A stretch of DNA of 64,000 nucleotides, taken from positions 186,001 through 250,000 of the forward strand of contig NZ_JAGTUU010000007.1 of NCBI RefSeq assembly GCF_018224955.1, in the 5' to 3' direction. The DNA comes from Thetidibacter halocola (lineage in GTDB: Bacteria; Pseudomonadota; Alphaproteobacteria; Rhodobacterales; Rhodobacteraceae). How positions within the stretch are numbered: the stretch's first letter is position 1; each line of letters opens with the position of its first letter. The position numbers and the translations under genes were made by a program. The notes under the pieces were generated by a model that had not been told where the DNA came from, did not search any database, and was given only the letters and a program-made list of their open reading frames with translations. Positions 7,840 through 39,111 of the stretch are shown here, piece after piece.

Positions 7840-8433
7840 TCAGTTGCCGGCCAGCGTGCAGCAGCCGGAAAGGACGACCGGACCCTGACCCTCGAGCCGC
7901 AGGATCAGGTCGATCCCGATCCCGAAAAGCCGATCCGACATGCCGTCGGAGCAGATCCCGGCGGCATAGACGGCGTCAAGCGTCCCGGCCCCGTCCAGCA
8001 GCAGGCCAGCCCGGTCCAGCCGCCCGGAGGCGGGCAGGATCGTGGGCGGGCCGTAGGGGATCTCGGCCTCTCCCAGGCGGTCCAGCCGCGACGCGGCCTC
8101 GCCCAAAGTCAGGGTCCAGAAAGGTTCGGTGCCAAAGCAGCGGCGCGGCACCGGCGGTGTGCCTGCCCCCGGCTGCTGGGCCATGTAGGTCAGCGAGGCC
8201 CAGCCGCTGCCCTCGCCGCTGTTCAACCGGCCCCAGTTGCCCTGCCGTTCGACCACCTCGATATCGGTGGCGTCGGGCGCCAAGGCGCCGATGATGGTGC
8301 CGCTGACAGAGGGCGCATCGCGCACGTTCAGCACGTCACCCGCCGAGACGCCGCTCACGTCATGCAGTGTCGGAAACCCCTGCGCCATCGCGGCACCGGA
8401 AAGCACCAGCCAGAGAACCGCCGCCCGGATCAT
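7840..8433 (-). CDS. SH3-domain periplasmic protein (COG3650-like)
   Basis: A 197-residue protein with a cleavable signal peptide (hydrophobic 3-16, AMAQ near 15-18). A bacterial SH3b-type region follows (LNVRDAPSVSGTIIGAL, then GNWGRLNSGEGSGWAS). After a short linker comes CFGTEPFWTLTL, the start of a second domain seen in COG3650-like proteins. Its ATG overlaps the stop of the exporter permease upstream (ATGA), so the two are translationally coupled. It ends immediately against the convergent P450 gene. Role unknown; the coupling suggests an envelope function linked to glycan export. Confidence 0.7.
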   Translation of the reverse strand: MIRAAVLWLVLSGAAMAQGFPTLHDVSGVSAGDVLNVRDAPSVSGTIIGALAPDATDIEVVERQGNWGRLNSGEGSGWASLTYMAQQPGAGTPPVPRRCFGTEPFWTLTLGEAASRLDRLGEAEIPYGPPTILPASGRLDRAGLLLDGAGTLDAVYAAGICSDGMSDRLFGIGIDLILRLEGQGPVVLSGCCTLAGN

Positions 8434-9260
8434 TGCCGCGCCCCCCACGAGGCCGAGGCATGCTTGCGTGTATAGAACTCTCCCATCAGGCCGATCATAA
8501 GCAGCGCGATGGAGACGTAAAGCGCGTATTCCCAGTCGGAATTGCGCGGGTTGTAATTGACGAAGGCATAGCCGCGCGACTGGTCGATGGTGTGGAACAG
8601 CGGGTTCCAGTCGAAGATGACCAGCATGTATCCGGGCATCGCGTTGGCCACGAACATCTTGCCCGAGGCGATCATGTTGGCCCGTTGGTAGACCGTCGAG
8701 ATGATGGACACCGGTGTCGGCGCCCAGGGCTTGATCGCCAGGAAGACCATGCCGATCGCCGCCCCCGAGAACCACGACAGCAACACCATGGAAAGGCAGC
8801 CGATCGGGTCGTGGATTTCCATCATCACGAAGGGATTGAAGGCCACGTCGTAGACGAACAGGATCGCCAGCAGCGACAGCATCTGGATATAGAGCGTGCT
8901 CAGCATGGCCGCCGCGATCGAGATCGCCGTGTTCATCGGCGCGTGCTGCATCATCGGGCTGGCCGGCCCCTCGGACGCGACCACGGCGCCCAGCGTCTTT
9001 GAATGGGTCATGTAGAGGAACACGCCGGTCATGATGTAGACCATGAAGTCGCCGCGCACCGCGGTGCCCCGCATGCCGAGCACCTTGAACATGAAATAGA
9101 AGGCGAGCACGAAGATCACCGTCTGCAACATGTTCATGAAGATCGCCATGAAGGCGTTGCCATGCGTCTTGCGCACCGCGCGGACCGCATTGTGATAGAT
9201 CAACTCCGAGATGTAGAGCGCGGAACCAAGACGCGACCGCGGTGCCGTGATATGAAACAT
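8430..9260 (-). CDS. Polysaccharide ABC exporter permease (KpsM/Wzm-like)
   Basis: A 276-residue inner-membrane protein of the ABC-2 polysaccharide export type. Several hydrophobic segments are visible (about 40-60, 70-88, 110-135, 150-175, 245-265), and the family length is about 260. The start at 9260 was chosen over an extension that would overlap the divergent cysQ side. No ATPase gene lies beside it. The matching KpsT-like ATPase and KpsE-like protein are at 48.4-50.7 kb. The stop overlaps the start of the SH3 protein gene by four bases. Confidence 0.8.
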   Translation of the reverse strand: MFHITAPRSRLGSALYISELIYHNAVRAVRKTHGNAFMAIFMNMLQTVIFVLAFYFMFKVLGMRGTAVRGDFMVYIMTGVFLYMTHSKTLGAVVASEGPASPMMQHAPMNTAISIAAAMLSTLYIQMLSLLAILFVYDVAFNPFVMMEIHDPIGCLSMVLLSWFSGAAIGMVFLAIKPWAPTPVSIISTVYQRANMIASGKMFVANAMPGYMLVIFDWNPLFHTIDQSRGYAFVNYNPRNSDWEYALYVSIALLMIGLMGEFYTRKHASASWGARQ

Positions 9261-9408
9261 GGCTCTCTGCTCCGAAAAGCGGCAGGGCGTCTGCTGCGCC
9301 TGTGTGTCCGGGATGCCCGGCTTGCCGTTCGTCCTCGAACGCAGCATAAGGCGGCGAGCGTTGCAAATCAATAAATCCGCGCGGCTGGCGCGGGCATGGA
9401 GGATTGCC

Positions 9409-10206
9409 TTGAATTATTCCGAACTGGTGACCGTGATGCGGAAACTGGCCCTGGAGGCGGGCGACAGGATCATGCAGATCTACGATGCCGATGATTTCGA
9501 TGTGAAGGTGAAATCTGATGCAAGCCCGGTGACAGAGGCCGACGAGGCCGCCGACGCGCTGATCTCGGCAGGCCTGCGAAGCGCCTTTCCGGACATGGCC
9601 CTTGTCACCGAGGAGCAGGCAGACAGCCATGATACGCAGGCGATGACCTTTCTCATTGTCGATCCATTGGACGGGACCAAGGAATTCATCAACCGTCGCG
9701 GCGACTTCACCGTAAACATCGCGCTGGTCGAGGATGGCGTGCCGACGCGCGGCGTCGTCTATGCTCCGGCCAAGGGGCGGATGTTCTACACGGATGCGCT
9801 GGGCCAGTCGGTCGAGGAGCAGGGCCCCTTCGATGCTGAGACGCCGGGCCAGACGCGACCGATCCATGTAACACGACCCGACAACGATGCGCTGATGGTG
9901 GTGGCCTCGAAATCGCACCGCGACCAGGCGACCGACGACTATATCGGGAAGTACGCGGTCAAGGACATGACCAGCGCGGGATCGTCGCTGAAGTTCTGTC
10001 TGGTGGCCACGGGCGAGGCGGATCTCTATCCTCGGCTCGGGCGGACGATGGAATGGGACACGGCGGCGGGCCACGCTGTCCTGGCCGGCGCGGGCGGGCA
10101 GGTGGTGCGTTTCGACGATCACACGCCGCTGTCCTACGGCAAGACAGGCTTCGCAAATCCGTTCTTCATCGCCTACGCGCCGGGGGTCGCTTTGAAAGGT
10201 GCGTGA
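9409..10206 (+). CDS. cysQ: 3'(2'),5'-bisphosphate nucleotidase (PAP phosphatase)
   Basis: A 265-residue inositol-monophosphatase-fold enzyme that hydrolyses 3'-phosphoadenosine 5'-phosphate to AMP, removing the inhibitory product of sulfotransfer and PAPS reduction. The metal-binding motif DPLDGTKEF begins at Asp85, with the conserved Glu pair near 68-69 and WDTAAGH at 216-222. I place the start at the TTG at 9409 because TGGAGGA precedes it; no in-frame ATG lies close, and longer frames run into the divergent permease. It sits between the exporter permease and galU, 6 kb from a sulfotransferase gene. Confidence 0.88.
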   Translation: MNYSELVTVMRKLALEAGDRIMQIYDADDFDVKVKSDASPVTEADEAADALISAGLRSAFPDMALVTEEQADSHDTQAMTFLIVDPLDGTKEFINRRGDFTVNIALVEDGVPTRGVVYAPAKGRMFYTDALGQSVEEQGPFDAETPGQTRPIHVTRPDNDALMVVASKSHRDQATDDYIGKYAVKDMTSAGSSLKFCLVATGEADLYPRLGRTMEWDTAAGHAVLAGAGGQVVRFDDHTPLSYGKTGFANPFFIAYAPGVALKGA

Positions 10207-10259
10207 CCTGCAGGCGCGACTCTGCCGGACCTGCGCTCAGCGGGCTCAAGACCGCGCCG

Positions 10260-10282
10260 CATGGCGTCAACAAAACGCCATG
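10260..10282. other. Inverted repeat in the cysQ-galU spacer
   Basis: CATGGCGT at 10260-10267 and ACGCCATG at 10275-10282 are a perfect 8-base inverted repeat with a 7-base A-rich loop. No T run follows, so a true terminator is doubtful. The 204-base spacer also holds a TATAGT box at 10352-10357 that could be the galU -10 element, without a clear -35. Confidence 0.4.
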
Positions 10283-10410
10283 AATCTGTGCATAGGTGGT
10301 GAAAAACAGGACTAAGCTTACAGTAATCCCTGCCCGGGTATGGTTTCGCGCTATAGTGGTAGGGTGGAATTCATGCCATAAGCCGTACAGCGGACCTAAA
10401 GGAGCTGGCC

Positions 10411-11301
10411 ATGCGCAAGAAGATCACCAAGGCGATTTTTCCGGTCGCGGGACTGGGAACGCGCTTTCTTCCGGCGACCAAATCTGTCCCCAAGGAAATC
10501 ATGACGCTCGTCGACCGGCCGCTGGTGCAATACGCCATCGACGAGGCACGCGCCGCCGGGATCAAGGAATTCATCTTCGTCACCTCGCGTGGCAAGGGCG
10601 CGCTGGAGGATTACTTCGACCACGCCCCGCAGCTGGAACAGGAGCTGCGCAAGAAGGGCAAGCATGACCTGCTTGAAACCCTGCGGTCGACCAACATGGA
10701 GTCGGGCGAGGTCGCCTATCTGCGGCAGCATCGTGCGCTGGGCCTTGGCCACGCGGTCTGGTGCGCCCGCCGCCTGATCCACAACGAACCCTTCGCAGTC
10801 ATGCTGCCCGACGACGTGATCGCGGCCGAAAAGCCCTGCCTGCAGCAGATGGTCGAGGCCTACGAGGAAACCGGCGGCAACATGGTCGCCGCGATGGAGG
10901 TGCCGGCCGAGCGCGCCTCGGCCTATGGCATTCTCGACGTGCGCGAGGACATGGGCTCGATCGTGTCGGTCAAGGACATGGTCGAAAAGCCCAAGGCAGG
11001 CGAGGCGCCGTCGAACCTGGCGGTGATCGGGCGCTACATCCTGACGCCCGCCGTGCTGCGCAACCTCAACAAGATGAAGGCCGGCGCGGGTGGCGAGATC
11101 CAGCTGACCGACGCCATCGCGCAGGAAATCGACGGCAACGGCGTCTATGGCTTCCGCTTCCGCGGCCAGCGCTTCGATTGCGGGTCCAAGGCGGGCTTCC
11201 TCCAGGCGACCGTGGCCTTTGGCCTGGCGCGGGACGAGTTGCGCGATGACCTCGAATCCTTCCTGCACGAGATTATCGCGGCGCGCAAAGCGGCCGAATA
11301 A
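10411..11301 (+). CDS. galU: UTP-glucose-1-phosphate uridylyltransferase
   Basis: A 296-residue cytoplasmic enzyme that makes UDP-glucose from UTP and glucose-1-phosphate. The N-terminal nucleotide loop AGLGTRFLPATKSVPKEI is at about 13-31. VEKP and the C-terminal GxRFDCGSKxG motif are present. AAAGGAGC precedes the ATG. It is followed after 3 bases by galE, forming a UDP-glucose/UDP-galactose supply module that leads into the glycosyltransferases. Confidence 0.95.
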   Translation: MRKKITKAIFPVAGLGTRFLPATKSVPKEIMTLVDRPLVQYAIDEARAAGIKEFIFVTSRGKGALEDYFDHAPQLEQELRKKGKHDLLETLRSTNMESGEVAYLRQHRALGLGHAVWCARRLIHNEPFAVMLPDDVIAAEKPCLQQMVEAYEETGGNMVAAMEVPAERASAYGILDVREDMGSIVSVKDMVEKPKAGEAPSNLAVIGRYILTPAVLRNLNKMKAGAGGEIQLTDAIAQEIDGNGVYGFRFRGQRFDCGSKAGFLQATVAFGLARDELRDDLESFLHEIIAARKAAE

Positions 11302-11304
11302 GGC

Positions 11305-12291
11305 ATGACCGACAACGTCCTCGTCACCGGCGGCGCCGGCTATATCGGCAGCCACGCCTGCAAGGCGCTGCGCGCTGCGGGATTTACCCCTGTTACCTAC
11401 GACAACCTGTCGACCGGATGGCAGGACGCTGTGAAATTCGGGCCGTTCGAACAGGGCGACCTGATGGACCGTGCCACGCTGGACGCGGTCTTTGCCCGCT
11501 GGCAGCCGGTGGCGGTCATGCATTTCGCCGCCCTCAGCCAGGTCGGCGAAGCGATGGCCAAGCCCGGCCTCTACTGGCGCAACAATGTCGAGGGCTCGCT
11601 GACCCTGATCGAGGCGGCGGTCGCGGCGGGTTGCATGAACTTCGTCTTTTCGTCAACCTGTGCCACCTATGGCGAGCACGACAATGTCGTGCTCGACGAA
11701 AACACCCTGCAGGAGCCGCTGAACGCCTATGGCGCGTCCAAGCGCGCGGTGGAAAACATCCTGCGCGATTTCGAGGGGGCCTATGGTCTGAAATCGGTGA
11801 TCTTCCGCTATTTCAATGTGGCCGGCGCCGATCCGGATGGCGAGGTGGGCGAACACCACCGCCCCGAGACGCACCTGATCCCGGTCATGCTCGAGGCGAT
11901 CGATGGCAAGCGCCCGGCGCTGACGATCCACGGCACCGACTACGATACGCCCGATGGGACCTGCATCCGCGATTACGTGCATGTCTGCGACCTGGTGGAT
12001 GCGCATGTGCTGGGCCTGAATTGGCTGGAAGAGGGCAAGGGCAGCCGCGTCTTCAACCTGGGCACCGGCACGGGCTTCAGCGTGCGCGAGGTGATCGACG
12101 CCTCGCGCGCCGTGACCAATCTCGACGTGCCGTTCTCCGAGGGGCCGCGCCGCCCCGGTGATGCGACCAAGCTGGTCTCGGGCTCGACCCGGGCGGCCGC
12201 CGAACTGGGCTGGGCGCCAAGGCGCTCGACCATGCCGCAGATGATCGGGGATGCGTGGCTCTGGCACCGCACGGGCGCGTATGAGCGCTGA
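11305..12291 (+). CDS. galE: UDP-glucose 4-epimerase
   Basis: A 328-residue short-chain dehydrogenase-type epimerase interconverting UDP-glucose and UDP-galactose. The NAD-binding loop GGAGYIGSH is at 9-17. Ser117 and the Tyr142-x3-Lys146 pair (AYGASK) are the catalytic residues. Length and motifs match true GalE. Its TGA shares a base with the ATG of the next glycosyltransferase gene (TGATG), so the module is coupled. Confidence 0.93.
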   Translation: MTDNVLVTGGAGYIGSHACKALRAAGFTPVTYDNLSTGWQDAVKFGPFEQGDLMDRATLDAVFARWQPVAVMHFAALSQVGEAMAKPGLYWRNNVEGSLTLIEAAVAAGCMNFVFSSTCATYGEHDNVVLDENTLQEPLNAYGASKRAVENILRDFEGAYGLKSVIFRYFNVAGADPDGEVGEHHRPETHLIPVMLEAIDGKRPALTIHGTDYDTPDGTCIRDYVHVCDLVDAHVLGLNWLEEGKGSRVFNLGTGTGFSVREVIDASRAVTNLDVPFSEGPRRPGDATKLVSGSTRAAAELGWAPRRSTMPQMIGDAWLWHRTGAYER

Positions 12292-13343
12292 TGCCGGGGG
12301 GCGGGCGGCTCTCTGATCTCTGGGCCGCCTACCGGGCGCGCATGGCGCGCCGTGCGCTGCTCTGGCGCAGTTTCCGCAGCCGACACCGCCTGGCGCCGGT
12401 TTCCGTCCATGAAAAGGCGATCCGCGCCGCGCCGATCCTCTGCTTCGCCGTCGTGCGGATCGAGGCGGCGCGCCTGCCCTGGTGGCTGGATCATCACAGG
12501 GCATTGGGCGTCGGACATTTCCTGGTGGTCGACAACGGCTCGACCGACGGAACGCGCGACGTGCTGGACGCGCCTGACATCTCGGTCTGGCGCACCGATG
12601 CGGTCTATCGGGAGGCGCGGTTCGGGCTGGACTGGGCCAGTTGGCTGCTCATGCGCCACGGGCACGGCAAGTGGTGCCTGACGCTGGATGCGGACGAGCT
12701 GCTGGTCTACCCGCATCACGACCGCGCCGGATTGTCGGCGTTGACAGCGGAACTGGACCGGCGCGGTCAGCCGGCCCTGGGCGCCCTGATGCTCGATCTC
12801 TATCCAAGGGGGCCGCTGGGAGCGGGGGACTATCGACCCGGAACCGATCCGGTGCAGACGATCCCCTGGTTCGACACGGCGTATCGCGCCCGGCGCGTCG
12901 GCCCGCGCCGCAAGCTGTGGGTGCAGGGCGGCGTGCGCGACCGTGCCTTTTTCGCCGAGACGCCAGAGCGCGCGCCGACCCTGAACAAGCTGCCGCTGGT
13001 CCGTTGGAACCGGCGCTTTGCCTACGACAACTCGACCCACACCGCCCTGCCGCCCCGGCTGAACATGGCCTATCCCGGCCCGCCCGGCCTGCTGGACGAG
13101 CCTGATGCGCTGTCGGGCGTCCTGCTGCACACCAAGTTCCTGCCCGAGATCGTCGGCAAGTCCGCCATCGAGAAGTCGCGGGGCCAGCATTTCCACGACC
13201 CCACCCTGTTCCACGGCTACTACGACGCCATCACCGGCGCGCCCGACCTCTGGCATCCCGGGGCACAGCGCTACTGCGACTGGCGGCAACTGGTCGACCT
13301 GGGGCTGATGTCCGCGGCGGGCTGGCAGCCGCCCGAGGGATAA
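12291..13343 (+). CDS. Glycosyltransferase, GT2-like (paralogue A)
   Basis: A 350-residue putative glycosyltransferase of the Glyco_tranf_2_4 (PF13704) kind. The fold markers are an early FAVVRIEAARLPWWLDHHRALGV region, VVDNGSTDGT at about 79-88, and the metal-binding DxD as LTLDADE (Asp133, Asp135). The C-terminal half has WVQGGVRDRAFF and a conserved LHTKFL. It is clearly paralogous to the next gene with the same length and motif order. No membrane segment is evident. Donor and acceptor are unknown. It is co-transcribed with galU-galE. Confidence 0.8.
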   Translation: MPGGGRLSDLWAAYRARMARRALLWRSFRSRHRLAPVSVHEKAIRAAPILCFAVVRIEAARLPWWLDHHRALGVGHFLVVDNGSTDGTRDVLDAPDISVWRTDAVYREARFGLDWASWLLMRHGHGKWCLTLDADELLVYPHHDRAGLSALTAELDRRGQPALGALMLDLYPRGPLGAGDYRPGTDPVQTIPWFDTAYRARRVGPRRKLWVQGGVRDRAFFAETPERAPTLNKLPLVRWNRRFAYDNSTHTALPPRLNMAYPGPPGLLDEPDALSGVLLHTKFLPEIVGKSAIEKSRGQHFHDPTLFHGYYDAITGAPDLWHPGAQRYCDWRQLVDLGLMSAAGWQPPEG

Positions 13344-13428
13344 GGGCTATGCAAGGGACGTTGTTGGGAATAATTTGTTAAAAAGAGGCGAATAGAGTGC
13401 GACCGTCGTCAGAAGGCGGCGGGACATC

Positions 13429-14481
13429 GTGGGCGGCAACGCCCCGGACAGGCAACAGGATCGGGCAGGCTTGGGTATCTGGCAGTCATATCGCATGCGC
13501 GTGCGCCGCAAGCGGCTGGGCCTGCGTGCGCTGCGCAAACGGCGTGAGCTGCGGCCCGTCGCCGATCGCACCGCCGATCTTTCCCGCCGCGACATCCTGC
13601 TGTTCTGCACCCAGCGGAACGAGGGCGCGCGCCTGCCGCATTTCCTCGATTATTACCGGGCTCTGGGCGTCAACCACTTCTTCTTCGTCGACAATGACAG
13701 CGACGACGGCTCGCTTCAGATACTGGCCCGACAGAAGGACGTGTCGGTCTGGACGACCCGCGCCAGCTACAAGCGGTCGCGCTATGGCGTGGACTGGATG
13801 AACTGGCTCTTGCGGCGCTACGGGCATGGCCATTGGTGCCTGACCGTCGACCCGGATGAGCTGTTTGTCTACCCGTTCTGCGACACGCGCCCCCTGCGGG
13901 CGCTGACCGACTGGCTGGAGGCGAGCAACGTCAAATCCTTCGGGGCCATGCTGCTGGACATGTATCCCAAGGGCCGGATCGACGCGCAGCCCTATCAGCC
14001 GGGGGATGACCCCCTGCGCATCGCCTGCTGGTTCGACGCCGGCAACTACGCGATCACGCGCAACCCCCAGCTTTGGAACCTCTGGATCCAGGGCGGGCCG
14101 CGGGCGCGGGTCTTTTTTCGCGACACGCCCGAAAAGGCGCCCGCGCTGAACAAGATCCCGCTGGTGAAATGGGACCGGCGCTATGTCTATGTCTCGTCCA
14201 CCCACAACCTGCTGCCGCGCGGGTTGAACCTGACCTATGACGAATGGGGCGGGGAAAAGACCAGCGGCATGTTGCTTCACACGAAATTCCTGTCCACCTT
14301 CCCGCAGAAGGCCGAGGAGGAGCTTGCCCGACGCCAGCATTACGGCGCTAGCCGCGAATACATCGCCTATGCCGACGGGATCCGCGACAATCCCGATCTC
14401 TGGTGCCGCTTCTCCGAGAAATACATCAATTGGCGCCAGCTTGAAATCCTCGGCCTGATGTCCAAGGGCAACTGGGCATGA
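13429..14481 (+). CDS. Glycosyltransferase, GT2-like (paralogue B)
   Basis: A 350-residue paralogue of the gene before it. It has CTQRNEGARLPHFLDYYRALGV, FVDNDSDDGS (87-96) and the DxD as LTVDPDE (Asp141, Asp143), then WIQGGPRARVFF and LHTKFL. The start is uncertain: GTG at 13429 has a purine-rich GGCGGG upstream and gives the full length; ATG at 13495 would shorten it by 22 residues. The 85-base gap before it is relatively AT-rich and might carry a promoter. Its stop overlaps the next start by four bases. It is more Lys/Asn-rich than paralogue A. Confidence 0.8.
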   Translation: MGGNAPDRQQDRAGLGIWQSYRMRVRRKRLGLRALRKRRELRPVADRTADLSRRDILLFCTQRNEGARLPHFLDYYRALGVNHFFFVDNDSDDGSLQILARQKDVSVWTTRASYKRSRYGVDWMNWLLRRYGHGHWCLTVDPDELFVYPFCDTRPLRALTDWLEASNVKSFGAMLLDMYPKGRIDAQPYQPGDDPLRIACWFDAGNYAITRNPQLWNLWIQGGPRARVFFRDTPEKAPALNKIPLVKWDRRYVYVSSTHNLLPRGLNLTYDEWGGEKTSGMLLHTKFLSTFPQKAEEELARRQHYGASREYIAYADGIRDNPDLWCRFSEKYINWRQLEILGLMSKGNWA

Positions 14482-16199
14482 GCGGCCGGCAGGGCGGCGG
14501 CCCCGTGGGCATCGTCATGCTGGTGCACACCGCCCTGCACAGGGCCGAACAGGTGGCTCGACACTGGGCACGGGCGGGGTGCCCCGTCGTGATCCATGTG
14601 GACCGGATCGTGCCCAGGGCGCGTTTCGACGCCTTCCGCCACAGCCTTGCCGACCTGGACCACGTGACGTTCTCACAGCGCCATCGCTGCGAATGGGGCT
14701 CGTGGGGGCTGGTGGCGGCCAGCCAGGACGCGTCGGACATGATGCTCGACCGCTTTCCGGACGTGCGGCATGTCTACCTCGCCTCTGGCTCCTGCCTGCC
14801 CTTGCGCCCCGTGCGCGAGTTGCAGGACTACCTGAACCGCCATCCCCGTACCGATTTCATCGAAAGCGCCACCACCCAGGACGTGCCCTGGACGGTCGAC
14901 GGGCTCAACCACGAACGGTTCACCCTGTTCTTCCCGTTCTCCTGGCGGCGCCAGCGGCGGCTCTTCGATGCCTTTGTCGAGGTGCAGCGCTCCTTGCGGG
15001 TGCGTCGGCGGATGCCCTCGGGGCTGGTGCCGCATCTGGGCAGCCAGTGGTGGTGCCTGACGCGTCAGACCCTGTCGGCCATCCTCCAGGACCCGAACCG
15101 CGCGCGGCATGACCGTTTCTTCCGGCAGGTCTGGATCCCGGACGAAGCCTATTTCCAGACGCTGGCGCGGAAGTATTCCACGCAGATCGAAAGCCGGTCG
15201 CTGACCCTGTCCAAGTTCGACTACCAGGGCAAGCCGCATGTCTTCTACGATGACCACATGCAGCTGTTGCGGCGGTCGGACTGTTTCGTGGCACGCAAGA
15301 TCTGGCCGCATGCCGACCGGCTCTATGACTTCTTCCTGTCCGACGACGGGCGCGCCGTGTCGCGGCAGGAACCGGCGCCGGGCAAGATCGACCGTCTGTT
15401 CGCCCGCGCGGTCGAGCGGCGCACGCGCGGCCGCCCCGGCCTGTTCAGCCAGAGCCGCTGGCCTAGAGCCGGCCGCACCACCGATGCCAGCGCCGCGAAA
15501 TACGCCGTCTTCCAGGGCTTCGCCGAGCTGTTCGAGGATTTCGAGGGCTGGTTGTCGCGGGCCACGGGCGCGCAGGTGCACGGCCATCTCTATGCGCCTG
15601 ACCGGGCGGAATTCGCCGGGCGTCAGGCGGTGATCGCCGGTGCTCTGTTCGACAGCGCCGCGTTGCGCGACGCCAACCCGCGCGCCTTCCTGACGAACCT
15701 GCTCTGGAACACGCGGGGCGAGCGGCAGTGTTTCCAGTATGGCCCCCGCGACACCGCCACGGCCTGCGCCATCATCGCCGCCGATCCCAATGCGCAGGTC
15801 AGCGTGATCTCGGGCGCCTGGGCCGTGCCGCTGTTCCAGTCCAATGCCAACTTCGCCGATATCCGTGCCGAGGCCGCGCGCCTGCAAGGCGTCGAGGCCA
15901 GGATGCTAAAGACCTGGCGCGATGGGCGCACCAGGGCGCGCGTCCGCATCTGGACCATGGCTGAATTCATCGAGGCACCGACAGAGGCGCTGCAACTGGT
16001 GCTCGAGGATGCGGGACCTGCCAAGGCGCCCCGCCTGTCCGAGGCGCCGCGCCTTCGCGACCTCGCGGGTTTTGGCCAGTTCCTGCAAAACCTCAAGAAC
16101 CAGGGGATGCATCCCTACCTGATGGGGGATTTCCCTGCCGATCCCATGGTGCCGGCGCCGAAAGACCCCGAACGCAAACCCTATCTCGTGCGAAAGTAG
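14478..16199 (+). CDS. Core-2/I-branching-type glycosyltransferase with extra C-terminal domain
   Basis: A 573-residue protein. Residues about 10-280 match the Branch (PF02485, GT14) family of beta-1,6-N-acetylglucosaminyl/xylosyl-type transferases: IVMLVHTALHRAEQVARHW, VIHVDRI, HRCEWGSWGLVAASQ and YLASGSCLPLRP. Residues about 320-573 form a second domain of unknown function. It lies between the GT2 pair and the sulfotransferase, overlapping the former by four bases and 3 bases from the latter. The family adds branches to glycans in eukaryotes; the bacterial substrates are mostly undefined. Function here is inferred from family and context. Confidence 0.75.
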   Translation: MSGRQGGGPVGIVMLVHTALHRAEQVARHWARAGCPVVIHVDRIVPRARFDAFRHSLADLDHVTFSQRHRCEWGSWGLVAASQDASDMMLDRFPDVRHVYLASGSCLPLRPVRELQDYLNRHPRTDFIESATTQDVPWTVDGLNHERFTLFFPFSWRRQRRLFDAFVEVQRSLRVRRRMPSGLVPHLGSQWWCLTRQTLSAILQDPNRARHDRFFRQVWIPDEAYFQTLARKYSTQIESRSLTLSKFDYQGKPHVFYDDHMQLLRRSDCFVARKIWPHADRLYDFFLSDDGRAVSRQEPAPGKIDRLFARAVERRTRGRPGLFSQSRWPRAGRTTDASAAKYAVFQGFAELFEDFEGWLSRATGAQVHGHLYAPDRAEFAGRQAVIAGALFDSAALRDANPRAFLTNLLWNTRGERQCFQYGPRDTATACAIIAADPNAQVSVISGAWAVPLFQSNANFADIRAEAARLQGVEARMLKTWRDGRTRARVRIWTMAEFIEAPTEALQLVLEDAGPAKAPRLSEAPRLRDLAGFGQFLQNLKNQGMHPYLMGDFPADPMVPAPKDPERKPYLVRK

Positions 16200-16202
16200 T
16201 CC

Positions 16203-17630
16203 ATGGACCGACACTTTGACTGTTTCGTCCTGTTTGCCGAGATGCGGACAGGCTCCAACTTTCTCGAGGCGAACCTGAACGCCTTCGACGGCATCGCCTG
16301 TCACGGCGAGGCGTTCAACCCAGCCTTCATCGGCTATCCCAAGTCCGAGGAAATCCTGACCGTCACGCTGGAAGAACGCGACCGCGATCCCTTTCGCCTG
16401 CTCGAGGCGATCCGGGCGAAGGATGACGGCATCGGCGGCTTCCGCTTTTTCCACGACCACGATCCGCGCGTGCTGGACGCGCTGCTGACCGATCCGCGCG
16501 TGGCCAAGATCGTGCTGACGCGCAACCCGGTGGACAGCTATGTGAGCTGGAAGATCGCCAGGGAAACCGGCCAATGGAAGCTGACCAACGTCAAGAAGCG
16601 CAAGGATGGCCAGGCCAGTTTCGACGCCGAGGAATTCGAGCGCTTCATGCAGGATCTCCAGGATTTCCAGGTGAAGATCCTCAACACGCTTCAGACCACC
16701 GGGCAGACCGCCTTCTACATCGCCTACGAGGATCTCCAGGACGTGGCGGTGATGAACGGGCTGGCGCAATGGCTGGGCTGTTCGGCGCGGCTGGACAGCC
16801 TGAATACCGCGCTGAAACGCCAGAACCCCGAGCCGATGGCCGAGAAGGTGGCGAATTTCGACGAAATGGAGCGCGCGCTGGCCCGGCTCGACCGGTTCAA
16901 CCTGCACCGCACACCGAATTTCGAACCGCGCCGTGGCCCTGTCGTGCGCAGCTTTGTCACCGGGGCAGGGACGCCGCTTCTGTATATGCCGATCCCCTCT
17001 GGCCCCGACCGCGCTGTGCGCAAGTGGCTGGCGGCGCTGGACGGGGTCAAGGGCGACGCCCTGCCCGCCAGGCAAAGCCAGGGAGAGTTGCGCCAATGGA
17101 TGCGCGACAATCCCGGCCATCGCAGCTTTACCGTGATCCGGCACCCGCTGGCCCGCGCGCACGAGGCCTTCTGTTCCAGGATCCTGACCACCGGGCGAGG
17201 CGCCTATGTGGGCATCCGCAAGACACTGCGCCGCGCCCACAACCTGCCCATCCCCGAGGGCGAACCCGATGGCGCCTATGATGTGAACGCCCATCGCGAG
17301 GCCTTCACCGCTTTCCTCGACTTCGTGAAGGCCAACCTGAACGGGCAGACGGCGGTGCGCGTGGACGGGCATTGGGCCAGCCAGGCGGCCTGCCTGCAAG
17401 GCATGGCAGAGTTCGTGCTGCCGGACATGATCGTGCGCGAGACAGAAATGGAAGGCTACCTGCCCGCATTGGCCGTTCAGGTGGGCCACCAGGCACCGCC
17501 AGAGCCGCAGGCGGTTGCCAACAAGGCGCCCTATTCCCTGGCGCAGATCTATGATGACCAGATCGAAAGCCTCGCCCGCGAGGCCTATCAGCGCGATTAC
17601 GGGATGTTCGGTTTCGACGACTGGGCCTGA
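16203..17630 (+). CDS. Two-headed sulfotransferase (Stf0/NodH-like plus second domain)
   Basis: A 475-residue protein. The first half (1-240) looks like a Stf0/NodH PAPS-dependent sulfotransferase: the 5'-phosphosulfate loop region FAEMRTGSNFLEANL is at 11-25 and the 3'-phosphate-binding region IVLTRNPVDSYVSW at 103-116. The second half (about 255-475) resembles a Sulfotransfer_2-type domain, with MPIPSGPDRAVRKWL at 262-276 and VIRHPLARAHEAF at 311-323. In that half the loop lacks the usual Lys-Thr-Gly-Ser residues, so it may be inactive or altered. It closes the glycosyltransferase operon, so its likely acceptor is the glycan made there. PAP produced could be removed by the nearby CysQ. Confidence 0.75.
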   Translation: MDRHFDCFVLFAEMRTGSNFLEANLNAFDGIACHGEAFNPAFIGYPKSEEILTVTLEERDRDPFRLLEAIRAKDDGIGGFRFFHDHDPRVLDALLTDPRVAKIVLTRNPVDSYVSWKIARETGQWKLTNVKKRKDGQASFDAEEFERFMQDLQDFQVKILNTLQTTGQTAFYIAYEDLQDVAVMNGLAQWLGCSARLDSLNTALKRQNPEPMAEKVANFDEMERALARLDRFNLHRTPNFEPRRGPVVRSFVTGAGTPLLYMPIPSGPDRAVRKWLAALDGVKGDALPARQSQGELRQWMRDNPGHRSFTVIRHPLARAHEAFCSRILTTGRGAYVGIRKTLRRAHNLPIPEGEPDGAYDVNAHREAFTAFLDFVKANLNGQTAVRVDGHWASQAACLQGMAEFVLPDMIVRETEMEGYLPALAVQVGHQAPPEPQAVANKAPYSLAQIYDDQIESLAREAYQRDYGMFGFDDWA

Positions 17631-21796: not shown

Positions 21797-22486
21797 TTGA
21801 CACCTCAACTGCATCAGGCGCTCCCTCTTCCGCGCACCGAAATCCTGCTGGACGATGCTTTCCGCGCCAAGCCCGGCGCGGCGCTCTACCGCGATGGCTT
21901 CAAGCGGGCGGTCGATGTCGTTCTGGTGCTGGTCGGCGCGCTGCCCGTCCTGCTGCTGCTCGCCGTGCTTTGCGCGATGATCATGCGCGACGGCGCATCG
22001 CCCTTCTATCGGCAAAGGCGTCTGGGCCGGAACGGTCGGATCTTTCACATGTGGAAGCTGCGTTCCATGGTGCCGGATGCCGATGCGCTGCTCGAGGCGC
22101 ACCTCTCCGAGAATCCGACGGCGCGTGCCGAGTGGGCGGTGAATCAGAAGCTGCGCAACGACCCACGCATCACCCCGGTCGGTCGGATCATCCGCAAGAC
22201 CTCGCTGGATGAACTGCCGCAGTTGTGGAACGTTCTGCGGGGCGACATGTCCTTGGTCGGGCCGCGCCCGATGATGGTCAACCAGCAGGATCTTTACCCC
22301 GGCACCGCCTATTACGCGCTGCGCCCGGGCATCACCGGGCTCTGGCAGACCTCGGTCCGCAACGACTCCAGCTTTGCCGAGCGGGCGGGTTTCGACACCG
22401 AGTACCTGCGCCAGCTGTCCTTCGGCACTGACGTGGCGATCCTGCTGCGGACGGCGCGGGTCGTCCTGCGCGGCACGGGCTGCTGA
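21797..22486 (+). CDS. ExoY-like undecaprenyl-phosphate sugar transferase
   Basis: A 229-residue bacterial sugar transferase (PF02397) that would start a polysaccharide repeat unit by moving a sugar phosphate onto the lipid carrier. One membrane segment is at about 38-62. The conserved [35 protein letters not shown] and RPGITGLWQ motifs follow. The start is a TTG at 21797: AAGGAGG at 21785-21791 is an ideal ribosome binding site 5 bases before it. No other glycan gene is adjacent. The long upstream region suggests separate regulation. Confidence 0.9.
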
Positions 22487-32247: not shown

Positions 32248-34320
32248 TCAGGACGCCGCGATCAGGCCCATGCTTTCCAGCTTCAGGATCACCTGGTGGG
32301 CGCAGTTGTCCACGTCGGTGCCTTCGGTCTCGACGCGCAGCTCGGGGTTCTTGGGCTCTTCGTAGGGGTCCGAGATACCGGTGAATTCCTTGATCTTGCC
32401 TTCGCGCGCCAGCTTGTAGAGACCCTTGCGGTCGCGACGTTCGCATTCCTCCAGCGCGGTCGCAACGTGGACCTCGAGGAAGGCGCCATAGGCCTCGATC
32501 ATCTCGCGCACTGCGCGACGGGTCGCGGTATAGGGCGCGATCGGCGCGCAGATCGCGATGCCGCCGTTCTTGGTGATCTCGGACGCGACATAGCCGATCC
32601 GCTTGATGTTGATGTCGCGGTGTTCTTTCGAGAAGCCCAGTTCCGAGGACAGGTGTTTCCGCACCACGTCACCGTCCAGCAGCGTCACGGGGCGGCCACC
32701 CATTTCCATCAGCTTGACCATCAGCGCGTTGGCGATGGTCGACTTGCCCGAACCGGACAGGCCGGTGAAGAACACGGTAAAGCCCTGGTTGGAACGCGGC
32801 GGACGGGTCTTGCGCAGTTCGGTGACGACCTCGGGGAACGAGAACCATTCGGGGATCTCCAGCCCCTCGGCGAGGCGGCGGCGCAGTTCGGTGCCAGAGA
32901 TGTCGAGAACGGTGTCACCCTCGGGAACCTCGTTGGCGGGATAATACTGTGCCTTCTCCTGCACGAAGACCATGTGCTTGAAGTCGACCATCTCGATGCC
33001 GATCTCGGCGGCATGCGCGGCGAACAGTTCCTGCGCGTCATAGGGGCCGTAGAAATCCTGCCCGGCAGAGTTCTTGCCCGGGCCGGCATGGTCGCGGCCG
33101 ACGATCATGTGCGTGCAGCCGTGGTTCTTGCGGATCAGGCCGTGCCAGACCGCCTCGCGCGGGCCGGCCATGCGCATGGCGAGGTTCAGCAGGCTCATCG
33201 TCGTGGTCGAGGCCGGGTACTTGTCCAGCACGGCCTCGTAGCAGCGCACGCGAGTAAAGTGATCGACATCGCCCGGCTTGGTCATGCCGACGACGGGATG
33301 GATCAGCAGGTTTGCCTGCGCTTCCTTGGCAGCGCGGAAGGTCAGTTCCTGGTGCGCGCGGTGCAACGGGTTGCGGGTCTGGAAGGCGACGATCTTGCGC
33401 CAGCCGACCTTGCGGAAATAGGCGCGCAGTTCGTTGGGCGTGTCGCGGCGGGCGCGGAAATCGTAATGCACCGGCTGCTGGATGCCGGTCACCGGGCCGC
33501 CCAGGTAGACAGCGCCGGCCTGGTTGTGCAGGTAGTTCACCGCCGGGTGGGCCAGGTCATCGGCGCCGAACACCTTCTCGGCCTCGCGGGCCTTGTTCGG
33601 CACCCACTTGTCGGTGACGGTCATCGTGGCGAGGATCACGCCTTCCTGGTCGCGCAGGGCGATATCCTGGCCGATCTCGACCGTTTCGGCGAACTTCTCG
33701 GTCACGTCCAGCGTGATCGGCATCGGCCACAGCGTTCCGTCTGCCAGCCGCATGTTCTCGACCACACCATCGTAATCCGCCTCGGACAGGAAGCCCTTGA
33801 GCGGGTTGAAGCCGCCGTTCATCAGCAATTCCAGGTCGCAGATCTGGCGCGCGGTCAGGTCGTGCGAGGTCAGGTCGGCGGCCTCGGCCTTGAGCTTTTG
33901 CGCGCTGTCATACGACACGTAGAGTTCGGGAATCGGGGCGAGATTGTTCTGCATCAGTTCTGTCCTGTGTTTGATGGGGACGAGGCCGCTGGTCGTGCCG
34001 GTCAGTTCGGCGTGAAGCGCATCATACTCTGCGAGTTTCCGGGCCAGGAAACGGTCGGCCAGCCGGGATTTCTCGGACGCCCCGCGCAGGGTCAGCGCAT
34101 AGGCGAAACGTTGGCGCCGGTCCGGTCCGGGCCGGTCCGAGATGTTGACAAGGCCAGCCTCTGCCGCCGCCCGGAGCCAGGCGTTGAGCCGCCCGAGCGA
34201 AATGCCGAGCGCTTCGGCCGTCACCCGCTGCGAAGCCTCCGGCGTCCGGTCGAGCTGGCGCAGAAGGCGGAAGAGCTGGTCTTCTTCCGGCAGGTTGGGG
34301 GCGGGATGCGAGGCGATCAT
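32248..34320 (-). CDS. EPS-type MarR wHTH fused to ATP sulfurylase / APS kinase
   Basis: A 690-residue protein. Residues 1 to about 110 look like the EPS-associated MarR winged-helix family: RTPEASQRVTAEALGISLGRLNAWL as the helix-turn-helix, then RFLARKLAEYDALHAEL. From Met123 it is a complete bifunctional Sat-CysC of normal length (568 residues). The sulfurylase motifs QTRNPLH (314-320) and GRDHAGPG (408-415) and the APS kinase P-loop GLSGSGKS (520-527) are intact. The enzyme makes PAPS from sulfate and two ATP. No stop separates the parts. The internal ATG at 33954 has AGGA upstream, so a separate enzyme may also be made. A palindrome lies just before the first ATG. Confidence 0.88.
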   Translation of the reverse strand: MIASHPAPNLPEEDQLFRLLRQLDRTPEASQRVTAEALGISLGRLNAWLRAAAEAGLVNISDRPGPDRRQRFAYALTLRGASEKSRLADRFLARKLAEYDALHAELTGTTSGLVPIKHRTELMQNNLAPIPELYVSYDSAQKLKAEAADLTSHDLTARQICDLELLMNGGFNPLKGFLSEADYDGVVENMRLADGTLWPMPITLDVTEKFAETVEIGQDIALRDQEGVILATMTVTDKWVPNKAREAEKVFGADDLAHPAVNYLHNQAGAVYLGGPVTGIQQPVHYDFRARRDTPNELRAYFRKVGWRKIVAFQTRNPLHRAHQELTFRAAKEAQANLLIHPVVGMTKPGDVDHFTRVRCYEAVLDKYPASTTTMSLLNLAMRMAGPREAVWHGLIRKNHGCTHMIVGRDHAGPGKNSAGQDFYGPYDAQELFAAHAAEIGIEMVDFKHMVFVQEKAQYYPANEVPEGDTVLDISGTELRRRLAEGLEIPEWFSFPEVVTELRKTRPPRSNQGFTVFFTGLSGSGKSTIANALMVKLMEMGGRPVTLLDGDVVRKHLSSELGFSKEHRDINIKRIGYVASEITKNGGIAICAPIAPYTATRRAVREMIEAYGAFLEVHVATALEECERRDRKGLYKLAREGKIKEFTGISDPYEEPKNPELRVETEGTDVDNCAHQVILKLESMGLIAAS

Positions 34321-38050: not shown

Positions 38051-38075
38051 GGGCGGGTTTGCAACCGCCCTTTTT
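38051..38075 (+). terminator. Terminator after the Lrp-type gene
   Basis: GGGCGG (38051-38056) pairs with CCGCCC (38065-38070) with a partly paired loop, and TTTTT follows at 38071-38075. It lies 67 bases past the regulator's stop and next to the end of the convergent Hint gene. Confidence 0.75.
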
Positions 38076-38866
38076 CACGTGTCCAGCAGGCTGTCGATGA
38101 CTTCGCGGGTGGTCCGGCTCAGGCGCAGGGGGCCGAAATCCTCGGGCCGGGCGACATGCGGGAACATCGACAGGAACAACTGGCGCATGGCTTCGCCCCC
38201 CGCATGAACCAGGGCCTTACCGGGATGGTAGGTCTCCAGTTCGAGGCCGCCGATCCGCACCGTGCTGTGGCGCTCGACCATGAAGTGATACAACTGCACC
38301 GGCCCGCCCGGCGTGATGTCGAGAAACCGGTCGCCATCGACGTAATCCGCCACCGGCGCCAAAACCGCCTCCTGTCCCAGCAGGCGTTGCAGGCGGGGAT
38401 GGCGGACGACGCGTCGTGCGGCGGGGCCAACCAGCACATCCATGCCCGGCTGGCCAAAATCCTGCGCCTCGGCGGTAATCCGCGTGAGCGAGGTCAGCGA
38501 CGTGCCCTCGTCGCTGCGGCCGGGAATATAGGTGGTCGATCCGATCCAGAGGACGGCGTCATGCCCTTCGGCCGTCTCGACGTAATCGCCGGGTGCCAGG
38601 TCCTCGATGGCCACCGGCCCGCGCAGGGTCGGGATCAGCGTGCCGCGCGCAAAGGCGCAGGCGGATTCCTCGAACTGGGGTGTCGCCGGCGCGACCAGCG
38701 TCTTGAGCGAGACGGACAGGTCCGCACCCAGCCAGGCCACCTCGTATTTCCGCATGAGTGAGACAGTGCGGCGAGGGGCGGCCTGGCGGGCAAAATCCCG
38801 CTCTTGCGGAATCTGCAGAGAGATGGCGCGCGAGGCGCCGTGGAGACCGGGGTGGAGACTTGACAT
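38075..38866 (-). CDS. Hint-domain protein
   Basis: A 263-residue protein with a Hint_2-type module (PF13403) from about residue 75 to 235: ACAFARGTLIPTLRGPVAIEDLAPGDYVETAEG, then the VERHSTVRIGGLELETYHPG region. Hint folds belong to hedgehog/intein relatives and self-process in some proteins. Here there is no obvious toxin or C-terminal extein, only about 30 residues beyond the module. The ATG at 38866 follows GAGGTGATC. It is a common orphan gene type in this bacterial group. Function unknown. Confidence 0.75.
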   Translation of the reverse strand: MSSLHPGLHGASRAISLQIPQERDFARQAAPRRTVSLMRKYEVAWLGADLSVSLKTLVAPATPQFEESACAFARGTLIPTLRGPVAIEDLAPGDYVETAEGHDAVLWIGSTTYIPGRSDEGTSLTSLTRITAEAQDFGQPGMDVLVGPAARRVVRHPRLQRLLGQEAVLAPVADYVDGDRFLDITPGGPVQLYHFMVERHSTVRIGGLELETYHPGKALVHAGGEAMRQLFLSMFPHVARPEDFGPLRLSRTTREVIDSLLDT

Positions 38867-39111
38867 GTGATCACCTCGCAAGGTTGGTCACATCCGTGTT
38901 GGCCCCCACCAACAACGACAGACGGAGAGATTGGTTCGTCGATCTGGTGACGATAAAGCCGCAATCCGCCGTCGGGGTCAAAATTGATCGCCCGCACCCC
39001 GGCCGCAAACGAACAATCCCGGCGCGATGGCCGGGATTGTCGATCAGGGTCTCGGGGCGGCGCCACAATTCGCGCGTGGCCGCTCTGGTCGGGGGCGAAT
39101 CGCGCGTTTGG

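Follow-up and report, generated by a model that had tools for sequence, protein, structure and literature searches.

A dispersed gene set, nearly universal among sampled Rhodobacteraceae, that may build, sulfate and export a capsule-like surface glycan

The 64,000-nucleotide stretch of the Thetidibacter halocola genome analysed here (the window) carries, at 8.4–17.6 kb, a block of genes in the order kpsM, cysQ, galU, galE, two GT2 genes, a GT14–DUF5927 gene and the gene for a two-headed sulfotransferase (ST). We consider it likely that this block provides the glycan-specific and sulfating components of a Kdo-primed, ABC transporter–dependent capsule or capsule-like surface glycan, a proposed mechanism to which gene content, synteny, concerted loss and a conserved PAPS site all point. 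The gene set is wider than the original prediction could see: it is family-wide and is completed by a kpsS–kpsD–kpsC locus. The capsule system is probably a nearly universal and ancestral trait of the family.

Profile matches bore out the positions that had been given for all named genes, both in the block and elsewhere in the window (Table 1). From galU to the ST gene, all genes share one strand and are separated by 3, −1, 85, −4 and 3 bp, the stop of GT2 b overlapping the start of the GT14–DUF5927 gene (ATGA), and the kpsM gene is divergent from cysQ across the family. Since the same gene order recurs across the family, the grouping is not due to chance. The KpsM-like permease, for which a Pfam search returned no match, is a distant relative, as judged from its NF050053 score relative to the cut-off; its homologues mostly align from around residue 31–41, so its true start is probably near 9260. 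The true start of CysQ is probably near 9409.

Table 1. Features of the window, with profile scores (cut-offs in parentheses) or diagnostic residues.
Feature	Position	Strand	Match or residues
KpsM-like permease of capsule ABC exporter	8430–9371	−	NF050053 34.6 bits (300)
CysQ, 3'(2'),5'-bisphosphate nucleotidase (clears PAP)	9259–10206 (ORF)	+	TIGR01331 266.2 bits (228.8)
GalU, presumed UTP-glucose-1-phosphate uridylyltransferase (named from family knowledge)	10411–11301	+	PF00483 97 bits
GalE-like UDP-sugar 4-epimerase	11305–12291	+	PF01370 189 bits
GT2 glycosyltransferase a	12291–13343	+	PF13704 105.8 bits (27.5)
GT2 glycosyltransferase b	13429–14481	+	PF13704 122.1 bits (27.5)
GT14 (Core-2/I-branching type) fused to DUF5927	14478–16199	+	PF02485 63.0 (23.4); PF19349 482.9 (27)
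Two-headed ST	16203–17630	+	Two heads: N half and C half
ST N head, Stf0/NodH-like fold	16203–16931	+	PAPS site MRTGSN 14–19, E36, R107, S115
ST C head, PF03567-type	16950–17630	+	RHPxxR and YxxDY kept, canonical PAPS 5' loop not
Bac_transf/ExoY-like sugar transferase	21797–22486		
wHTH–Sat–CysC (ATP sulfurylase + APS kinase)	32248–34320	−	PRK05537 1055.8 bits (669)
KpsT/VexC-like ATPase of exporter	48361–49020	+	VexC model 104.6 bits (313); overlaps kpsE
KpsE-like polysaccharide co-polymerase	48998–50683	+	TIGR01010 166.9 bits (437.5), E 6.6e-49

A full-length ST was found in 142 of the 149 sampled family genomes (69 of 73 genera), with one such copy each, and six of the 142 had extra partial matches. 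From the loci with names (the best 80 of 580 confirmed), we take the family to be Rhodobacteraceae sensu lato. These loci include an ST-carrying one of Ruegeria pomeroyi (L172); another of the 80, L121, belongs to a MAG labelled 'Cytophagaceae' (72% identity) and was taken for a mislabelled bin. In a class-wide search scoring at most five candidates per genome, three outsiders matched the N head only, among the matches listed (27 rows of the class table). Among 73 fetched ST loci, GT14–DUF5927 lay directly upstream of the ST in all 73 (fragmentary in one locus and carrying a stop in another), GT2 genes were present in 72 (a and b cross-match and were pooled in this count), and KpsM and GalU were neighbors in 69 and 68, respectively. 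The original prediction had proposed examining whether the ST gene co-occurs with cysQ, and CysQ was indeed present in 70 of the 73 loci. GalE, found in only 35, appears to be optional. KdsB, an enzyme of CMP-Kdo synthesis identified by profile in one relative, occurred at ≥58% identity in 49 of the 73 loci, which is only suggestive of a poly-Kdo lipid-linked surface polysaccharide; no kdsB lies inside the block of the T. halocola genome. Gene-distance correlations, computed for the 36 of 73 loci in which six genes were well covered, were r 0.85 for ST–GT14, 0.66 for ST–LptB and 0.35 for ST–HPF; the values fit joint descent, but these genes are neighbors.

Apart from kpsM, the export genes lie outside the block. 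Within the window, kpsTE is 31 kb and Sat–CysC 15 kb from it, while kpsS, kpsD and kpsC form a third locus on another contig of the same genome, with kpsD between the other two, which completes the gene set of a Kdo-primed ABC capsule. KpsC and KpsS matched PF05159 with 248 and 160 bits (cut-off 20), KpsS matched NF050054 with 224 bits (under the cut-off of 600), and KpsC had no NCBIfam match. The KpsD/VexA-type protein scored 55.7 against Pfam Poly_export (over the cut-off of 28) and 113 bits against VexA (under 456). The NCBIfam cut-offs were thus unreached for KpsM, KpsT, KpsE and KpsS; for KpsM and KpsT, the best named models were KpsM/VexB and VexC, with scores far under the cut-offs, and for KpsE, the TIGR01010 alignment covers nearly the whole model, its score being under a subfamily cut-off. 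Both a KpsE orthologue (best E ≤ 4e-111) and KpsC/S-type matches (PF05159, best E ≤ 1e-44) were detected in 142 of 142 ST genomes, and the former in one of the seven ST-less genomes. KpsM was detected in all 15 ST genomes that were examined for it.

The ST-less genomes show how these genes are lost. Six of the seven have neither KpsM, nor the KpsE orthologue, nor an intact DUF5927, and four of the six also have no strong KpsC/S matches; G110 and G141 carry strong but divergent KpsC/S-type genes and no ST. The seventh, G059, keeps kpsM, cysQ, galU, galE, GT2, GT14, KpsE and KpsC/S and is devoid of the ST, indicating that loss of sulfation need not entail loss of the glycan machinery. These losses are not assembly gaps, because the genomes are 99–100% complete and because Sat–CysC and an ExoY-like match are kept in all seven and CysH in six (G141 gave no PF01507 match). 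They are scattered on the CysH tree, which omits L225 (G008, no motif match) and G141: six changes were required for six rows, at least four of them forced by well-supported branches. The proposal that the ST, glycosyltransferases, CysQ and Kps genes make up one dispersed unit was therefore upheld by synteny and by the joint loss of the ST, GT14–DUF5927, KpsM and KpsE in six of seven genomes; the Fisher tests of gene association ignore relatedness. We regard it as an even call that a shared, sulfated, Kdo-anchored glycan built with the family-specific GT14–DUF5927 and the two-headed ST is ancestral and a near-constant family trait, rarely lost and then mostly as a whole.

Conserved synteny by itself might account for the block, which would then be a loose collection of adjacent housekeeping sugar genes. 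The housekeeping genes next door, lptB, hpf and ptsN, are also conserved, each adjoining the block in 62 of 73 ST loci, and local synteny is therefore generally high. Against this reading, which we deem extremely unlikely, scattered genomes show joint loss of genes from three separate loci, and G075 retains GT2/GT14 remnants beside a kept cysQ–galU–galE.

We then consider the ST itself. Its N half scored weakly with PF00685 (13.9 bits, under the cut-off of 22) and matched the solved 'LPS sulfotransferase NodH' (9vki, E 5e-6), the only solved match at E ≤ 0.1 when the N-head profile was compared with PDB sequences. The Stf0 profile PF09037 was matched at E ≤ 0.1 by two of 14 N-head members (best 0.022), the window's own ST not being among them. 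In a structure search of the predicted model (moderate confidence: pLDDT 84.9, pTM 0.53), the best N-head fold match was Stf0 (1tex, Z 12.7, rmsd 3.7, 195 aligned), with a further match to 3-OST-1 (Z 12.0, rmsd 4.6, 216 aligned). The residues R15, T16, G17, S18, E36, R107 and S115 were invariant in all 152 ST sequences; we take these positions to represent 5'-PSB and 3'-PB PAPS motifs. PAPS-dependent sulfotransfer is thus the predicted activity of the N head, given its invariant PAPS residues and fold. The C half matched PF03567 with 26.8 bits (cut-off 22), as did the C head in 19 of 19 members. It keeps H314–P315 in 152 of 152 sequences and R318 in 150, and a K/R directly after P263 was found in none of the 152, occurring one place later in 128. 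Searched against PDB sequences, the C-head profile returned nothing at E ≤ 1, and a profile comparison (28% over 43 columns) gave no support for the two heads being recent duplicates. The description of the protein as double-headed therefore holds at the level of sequence, with the qualification that the PAPS loop of the second head has degenerated. The N head shares its fold and PAPS motifs with Stf0 trehalose sulfotransferase and NodH-type enzymes; these are single-headed, whereas the present protein has an additional, PF03567-like head fused to it.

As the N head's closest solved relative is annotated as an LPS sulfotransferase, its acceptor could be lipid-linked. The ST might then modify LPS or another lipid-linked oligosaccharide, with the Kps genes travelling along for other reasons, and the proximity of lptB, hpf and ptsN would agree with this. 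We judge it decidedly unlikely, since six genomes have lost the ST and GT14 along with KpsM and KpsE, four of these also lacking strong KpsC/S matches, whereas LPS is presumably kept in all six; the lptB–hpf–ptsN neighborhood is, moreover, a housekeeping one.

In a motif scan, 23 of the 24 CysH loci examined proved to encode an APS-reductase type of enzyme, so PAPS should be unneeded in sulfate reduction and looks reserved for sulfotransfer. Sat–CysC, which had been put forward as the PAPS source, is plausible in that role on these grounds. The N-terminal MarR_EPS-like wHTH of Sat–CysC (TIGR04176, 80.8 bits; cut-off 88) had further been read as tying sulfate activation to glycan regulation. 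This idea was not supported: the fusion, scored when the match began no later than query residue 13 (a diverged wHTH could be missed), was found in 56 of 149 genomes, that is, in only 56 of 142 ST genomes and none of the seven ST-less ones, a marginal association (Fisher p 0.045, uncorrected for relatedness), nine ST genomes gave no whole Sat–CysC match at all, and we rejected the fusion as a required part. Counting against the favored reading, three other PF00685 sulfotransferases in the same genome could be the users of PAPS and CysQ, and Sat–CysC is kept in genomes that lack the ST. The two-headed protein might alternatively have become a pseudo-enzyme with a glycan- or PAP-binding role, leaving the glycan unsulfated, and the canonical PAPS loop is indeed missing from the C head in all 152 sequences. 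The invariance of the N-head PAPS residues and E36, the position of the ST beside CysQ and the lack of an evident role for PAPS in sulfate reduction here all make this highly improbable.

Among the other parts, the GT14 model matched Core-2 GnT (2gam; Z 17.8, rmsd 4.1, 246 aligned); the GT14–DUF5927 model was of moderate quality (pLDDT 65.6, pTM 0.45), and its GT14 half filled the fold-match list. DUF5927 was present in 144 of 149 family genomes and, among the matches listed (24 of 289 rows), in four of the 289 genomes of a class-wide sample, all four being Rhodobacteraceae. Its profile had no credible match in the PDB (best E 0.93), and profile comparisons (3.3% and 1.5% probability) led us to reject it as a third sulfotransferase-like domain. 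No paper on DUF5927 was found among the open-access papers searched. The resemblance of the GT14 model to Core-2 GlcNAc transferases bears on another possibility, in which the same genes would make a polar adhesive (rosette- or holdfast-like) polysaccharide rather than a whole-cell capsule: the polar polysaccharide of Phaeobacter inhibens is described, in the part of the source available, as binding WGA, a GlcNAc-preferring lectin. Nothing that we found connects these genes directly with rosettes, and the gene set is of the KpsC/S–KpsMTED capsule type; we therefore hold this to be unlikely, if worth keeping in mind.

The ExoY-like gene, originally counted in the set, had to be set aside, since matches (paralogues pooled) occurred in all seven ST-less genomes and in 23 of 25 ST genomes tried, showing no association with the ST. 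It was accordingly rejected as the chain starter; a phosphosugar–undecaprenyl starter would, in addition, not fit a KpsC/S system.

In the mechanism that we favor for the capsule or capsule-like glycan, KpsS and KpsC of the third locus would place Kdo on a lipid, and the chain would be extended by the GT2s and GT14–DUF5927 with UDP-sugars from GalU/GalE. The ST N head would use PAPS, supplied by Sat–CysC or, in some genomes, by CysDNC-type enzymes, to sulfate the chain as it grows in the cytoplasm; binding or positioning of the glycan is probably the role of the degenerate C head. The PAP formed would be removed by CysQ, and the product would be exported by KpsMT with KpsE and a KpsD-like pore. 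We infer that the product is a glycan and that it is sulfated, as well as the order of steps and the roles of the C head and DUF5927.

The original prediction held that such a set had not been seen described. This does not stand, as a sulfated capsule of Cobetia marina KMM 1449 has been published, with a close parallel in Vibrio (PMC11766843, PMC11641403). According to the available portions of the first report, the Cobetia capsule contains sulfated rhamnose, shown by NMR, and is encoded with kpsETMD, kpsSC, cysN/C, cysD, cysQ and a sulfotransferase; the two systems share a Kps ABC exporter, kpsSC Kdo priming, PAPS genes including cysQ, a sulfotransferase and glycosyltransferases (PMC11766843). 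The Cobetia cluster differs in comprising about 70 genes with a strain-variable, rhamnose/mannose-based sugar region and a product that is also phosphorylated, and in having cysN/C, cysD and cysQ beside kps, whereas cysQ is the only PAPS gene inside our block; instead of that single cluster, three loci conserved across the family are found here, with kpsM and cysQ accompanying the ST. In the case of Vibrio sp. KMM 8419 and its sulfated capsule, the authors report, in the sections available, that the organisation was matched by no public genome; kpsD, kpsM, kpsE, kpsT, kpsS, cysNDC and sulfotransferases are in common, whereas kpsC is absent and the sugars and sulfotransferases are others (PMC11641403). 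Group 2-type secretion likewise uses a KpsC/KpsS Kdo linker and KpsMT–KpsE–KpsD export, but its glycan-making enzymes are described, in the excerpts at hand, as serotype-dependent, while here they are nearly constant in the family, the sulfotransferase included (PMC11041684). The GTA-receptor capsule of Rhodobacter capsulatus, also a surface polysaccharide and presumably from the same family, came into consideration because gene-transfer agents (GTAs) are studied in that species, but was dropped and set apart from our block by its description, as far as the source was available: it involves rcc01081–01086, wzc–wzb–wza and a chain-initiation gene, is apparently Wzy-type, and is absent from one natural strain (PMC10218006). 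The passages available from PMC13420450 leave sulfate unmentioned. No paper linking a Rhodobacteraceae sulfotransferase with capsular polysaccharide or the core genome was found in the open-access literature. Sulfated Kps-exported capsules are thus known, and it is the near-universal presence and the particular enzymes found here that appear to be undescribed.

The genes for building and sulfating the glycan are nearly universal in one family, and none was found elsewhere in the sampled class among the matches listed. In Kps systems, it is usually the glycan genes that vary, and a capsule is normally regarded as a fast-changing serotype trait. The capsule gene set supplies a functional context for DUF5927 and, in bacteria with a CysH resembling APS reductase, a use for the PAPS branch (APS kinase and CysQ). 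Genomes that naturally lack the ST, among them G059 with its loss of the ST alone, allow the idea of a sulfated capsule to be tested directly. Should sulfation be borne out, Rhodobacteraceae would constitute a large source of sulfated polysaccharide that has been overlooked, and, from what is generally known of the family, adhesion, the binding of phages and gene-transfer agents, and interaction with algae may be affected.

All genes named in the original prediction, which proposed that dispersed genes could make and export a sulfated glycan, were present in the window (G000:C20:186001-250000). galU, galE, two PF13704 GT2 genes, the GT14-DUF5927 gene and the two-headed sulfotransferase (ST) gene lie on one strand almost without gaps, with cysQ upstream of this run and a KpsM-like permease gene divergent from cysQ. 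Further along lie genes for a Sat-CysC protein with an N-terminal MarR_EPS-like wHTH domain, an ExoY-like transferase and a KpsT/KpsE pair. A gene for a Hint-domain (PF13403) protein was also seen amid otherwise ordinary genes.

Coordinates of the features discussed (window positions unless a locus or contig is named)
Feature	Position	Strand	Remark
kpsM-to-ST block	8430-17630		
ST	16203-17630	+	N head and C head
wHTH-Sat-CysC	32248-34320	-	
Hint-domain protein	38075-38881	-	PF13403
KpsT/KpsE pair	48-51 kb		
kpsS / kpsD-like / kpsC	L240:5227-9795		own genome, contig C18; outside window
Second relative of ST N head	L200, G000:C20:12933-13325		outside window
ST-less block of G059	L106:10700-12391 and downstream		

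A protein search of 149 genomes sampled from the order, all listed under one family, matched ST in 142 genomes and 69 of 73 genera; each best match covered about residues 1-5 to 471-475, and six of the 142 genomes had extra partial matches. DUF5927 was found in 144 of the 149, the two beyond the ST set being G059, which lacks ST, and a remnant in G075. Class-wide (289 genomes, 235 of them at least 90% complete), DUF5927 occurred in four genomes, all of the window's family, and full-length ST in the same four (up to five candidates scored per genome); three genomes outside the family matched the ST N head only. Seventy-five neighbourhoods were fetched, 73 with ST, and their common gene order was KpsM(-)/CysQ/[optional genes]/GalU/[GalE]/GT2/GT2/GT14-DUF5927/ST. 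By a stricter neighbour count (>60% of the gene covered, at least 40% identity, within 14 kb), the 73 ST loci included CysQ in 70, KpsM in 69, GalU in 68, GT14 in 71 and GalE in 35; in G004 (L037), kpsM lies at another chromosomal place. Among the best 80 of 580 named loci, 63 had enough flank, showing KpsM in 58, CysQ in 57 and GT14 in 62. Because these loci, which may share some samples with the 149-genome set, include Salipiger, Ruegeria, Roseovarius, Sulfitobacter and others, we call the family Rhodobacteraceae. The KpsM-CysQ-GalU-GT2-GT14-DUF5927-ST block is a trait of this family.

The CysQ-GalU gap holds one or two additional genes in many relatives. In L035 these encode a CMP-Kdo synthetase (KdsB) and an additional GT2-like enzyme. 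Across the 73 ST loci, 49 contain a homologue of the former and 35 a homologue of the latter; neither gene is present in the window. Several-kb insertions occupy this gap in L034 and L101; judged by eye, the one in L101 holds an ORF resembling another export protein of the KpsD type, as well as a gene similar to sugar-nucleotide epimerases. Lone in-frame stops interrupt otherwise conserved genes in G098 (ST), G133 (GT14-DUF5927, L093), and G048 and G134 (DUF5927), and could be either errors in sequencing or signs of early decay. A contig labelled 'Cytophagaceae' MAG (L121), probably a mislabelled bin, encodes an ST sharing 72% identity with that of the window.

All 142 ST genomes encoded an orthologue of the window KpsE (best E ≤ 4e-111) and KpsC/KpsS-type proteins (best E ≤ 1e-44). 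Fisher tests, which ignore relatedness and serve as a guide only, associated ST with KpsE (p 5e-10), KpsC/S (2e-6) and the KpsM subset (9e-5). In the window's genome, kpsS, a kpsD-like pore gene and kpsC are consecutive at a third locus, which was also found in all three ST-bearing relatives compared; it adjoins genes resembling nrdR, ribD and ribE (names assigned by eye). Judged by homology, these proteins and KpsM, KpsT and KpsE form a complete Kdo-primed ABC capsule set. Such sets are reported to export lipid-Kdo-linked polysaccharide (PMC11041684). KpsM, KpsT, KpsE and KpsS all score below their individual NCBIfam cut-offs and are therefore distant members.

ST was absent from seven sampled genomes (G059, G060, G075, G085, G094, G110 and G141). 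G059 retains every other gene looked for: kpsM, cysQ, galU, galE, GT2 and a diverged GT14-DUF5927 gene are followed by ptsN. With the sulfotransferase alone lost, it is a natural ST-minus strain for comparison. The other six had no KpsM at E ≤ 1e-8, no intact DUF5927 and no KpsE orthologue; three lacked any KpsE match, and G075, G110 and G141 had sub-orthologue matches (1.7e-11, 5.9e-20 and 2.6e-30). For KpsC/S, two of the six gave no match and two gave weak ones, whereas G110 and G141 had strong matches to divergent proteins; in these two, the 19 kb around the match held KpsS-like genes (30-32% identity), with neither KpsC nor KpsD matched at E ≤ 1e-3. In G075 (L107), CysQ-GalU-GalE persist beside short GT2b and GT14 remnants, KpsM being absent genome-wide; the block seems to have decayed recently, and the three other members of the genus tried retain it. 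ST-bearing members of the same genus were also sampled for G060 and G059. When presence of ST was mapped onto a CysH tree covering 23 genomes, six of them ST-less (G141 and G008 left out), six changes were required, and well-supported branches force at least four of these. Together, these results indicate that the dispersed glycan, ST and Kps genes are one system, a stronger case for uniting export genes, glycosyltransferases, CysQ and ST than originally made.

As controls, Sat-CysC and the ExoY-like protein were matched in 7/7 ST-less genomes and CysH in 6/7, mostly of the type seen in ST genomes; the ExoY-like gene, originally placed in the set, showed no association with ST. The wHTH-Sat-CysC fusion is patchy (56/149 genomes, all with ST; most others have Sat-CysC without the wHTH) and, at p 0.045 uncorrected, neither necessary nor clearly linked to ST. 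Nine ST genomes lacked a whole Sat-CysC match; each of the six examined by PF01507 had a second, stronger CysD-compatible match, about 2 kb from an APS-kinase match in four. CysH carried a CC...CxxC iron-sulfur motif, which we take to mark the APS reductase type, in 23 of 24 loci examined, including the window's genome, so APS kinase and CysQ would most plausibly serve sulfotransfer. The window's genome encodes three other PF00685 sulfotransferases above the Pfam cut-off (L001, L002 and L003), which could also use PAPS; these proteins, and the Sat-CysC and CysH of ST-less genomes, argue that PAPS is not reserved for ST alone.

We aligned 152 ST rows (151 distinct; 73 sampled loci, 78 named and the window). 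In the N head, MRTGSN, G35-E36, N39, R107, P109 and S115 were invariant (152/152), E36 presumably being the catalytic base by analogy with Stf0. The N-head model matched Stf0 (Z 12.7, rmsd 3.7, 195 aligned) and heparan 3-OST-1 (Z 12.0, rmsd 4.6, 216 aligned) equally well. A second relative of this head, in a 303 aa frame, is encoded in the same genome. The C head matched PF03567 in 19/19 members and retains RHPxxR and YxxDY. Residues of the PKxxGTS-type loop bind PAPS; in the corresponding C-head loop, K/R directly followed P263 in 0/152 rows, and S/T occurred at 268 in 1/152 and at 269 in 10/152. K or R at 265 in 128/152 rows counts against calling this head dead, and it may have a shifted, non-canonical PAPS site. 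Most likely, one head is active and the other binds glycan or plays a structural part.

The original interpretation is therefore supported in part: the case is stronger than first proposed for export, glycosyltransferases, CysQ and ST, and weaker for wHTH-Sat-CysC and ExoY; the glycan would probably be sulfated. In the open-access literature, we found no paper naming DUF5927 and none joining Rhodobacteraceae, sulfotransferase and capsular polysaccharide. A Kps-exported sulfated capsule with PAPS genes, including cysQ, and sulfotransferases is reported for Cobetia (PMC11766843); Vibrio offers a less complete parallel (PMC11641403). Both structures were solved by NMR. The R. capsulatus GTA-receptor capsule is reported to have a different, Wzy-type locus (PMC10218006). 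Kps-exported sulfated capsules are thus already known; what differs here from the Cobetia and Vibrio systems is the splitting of the set over three loci, the pairing of GT14-DUF5927 with a two-headed ST, and near-universal presence in one family.
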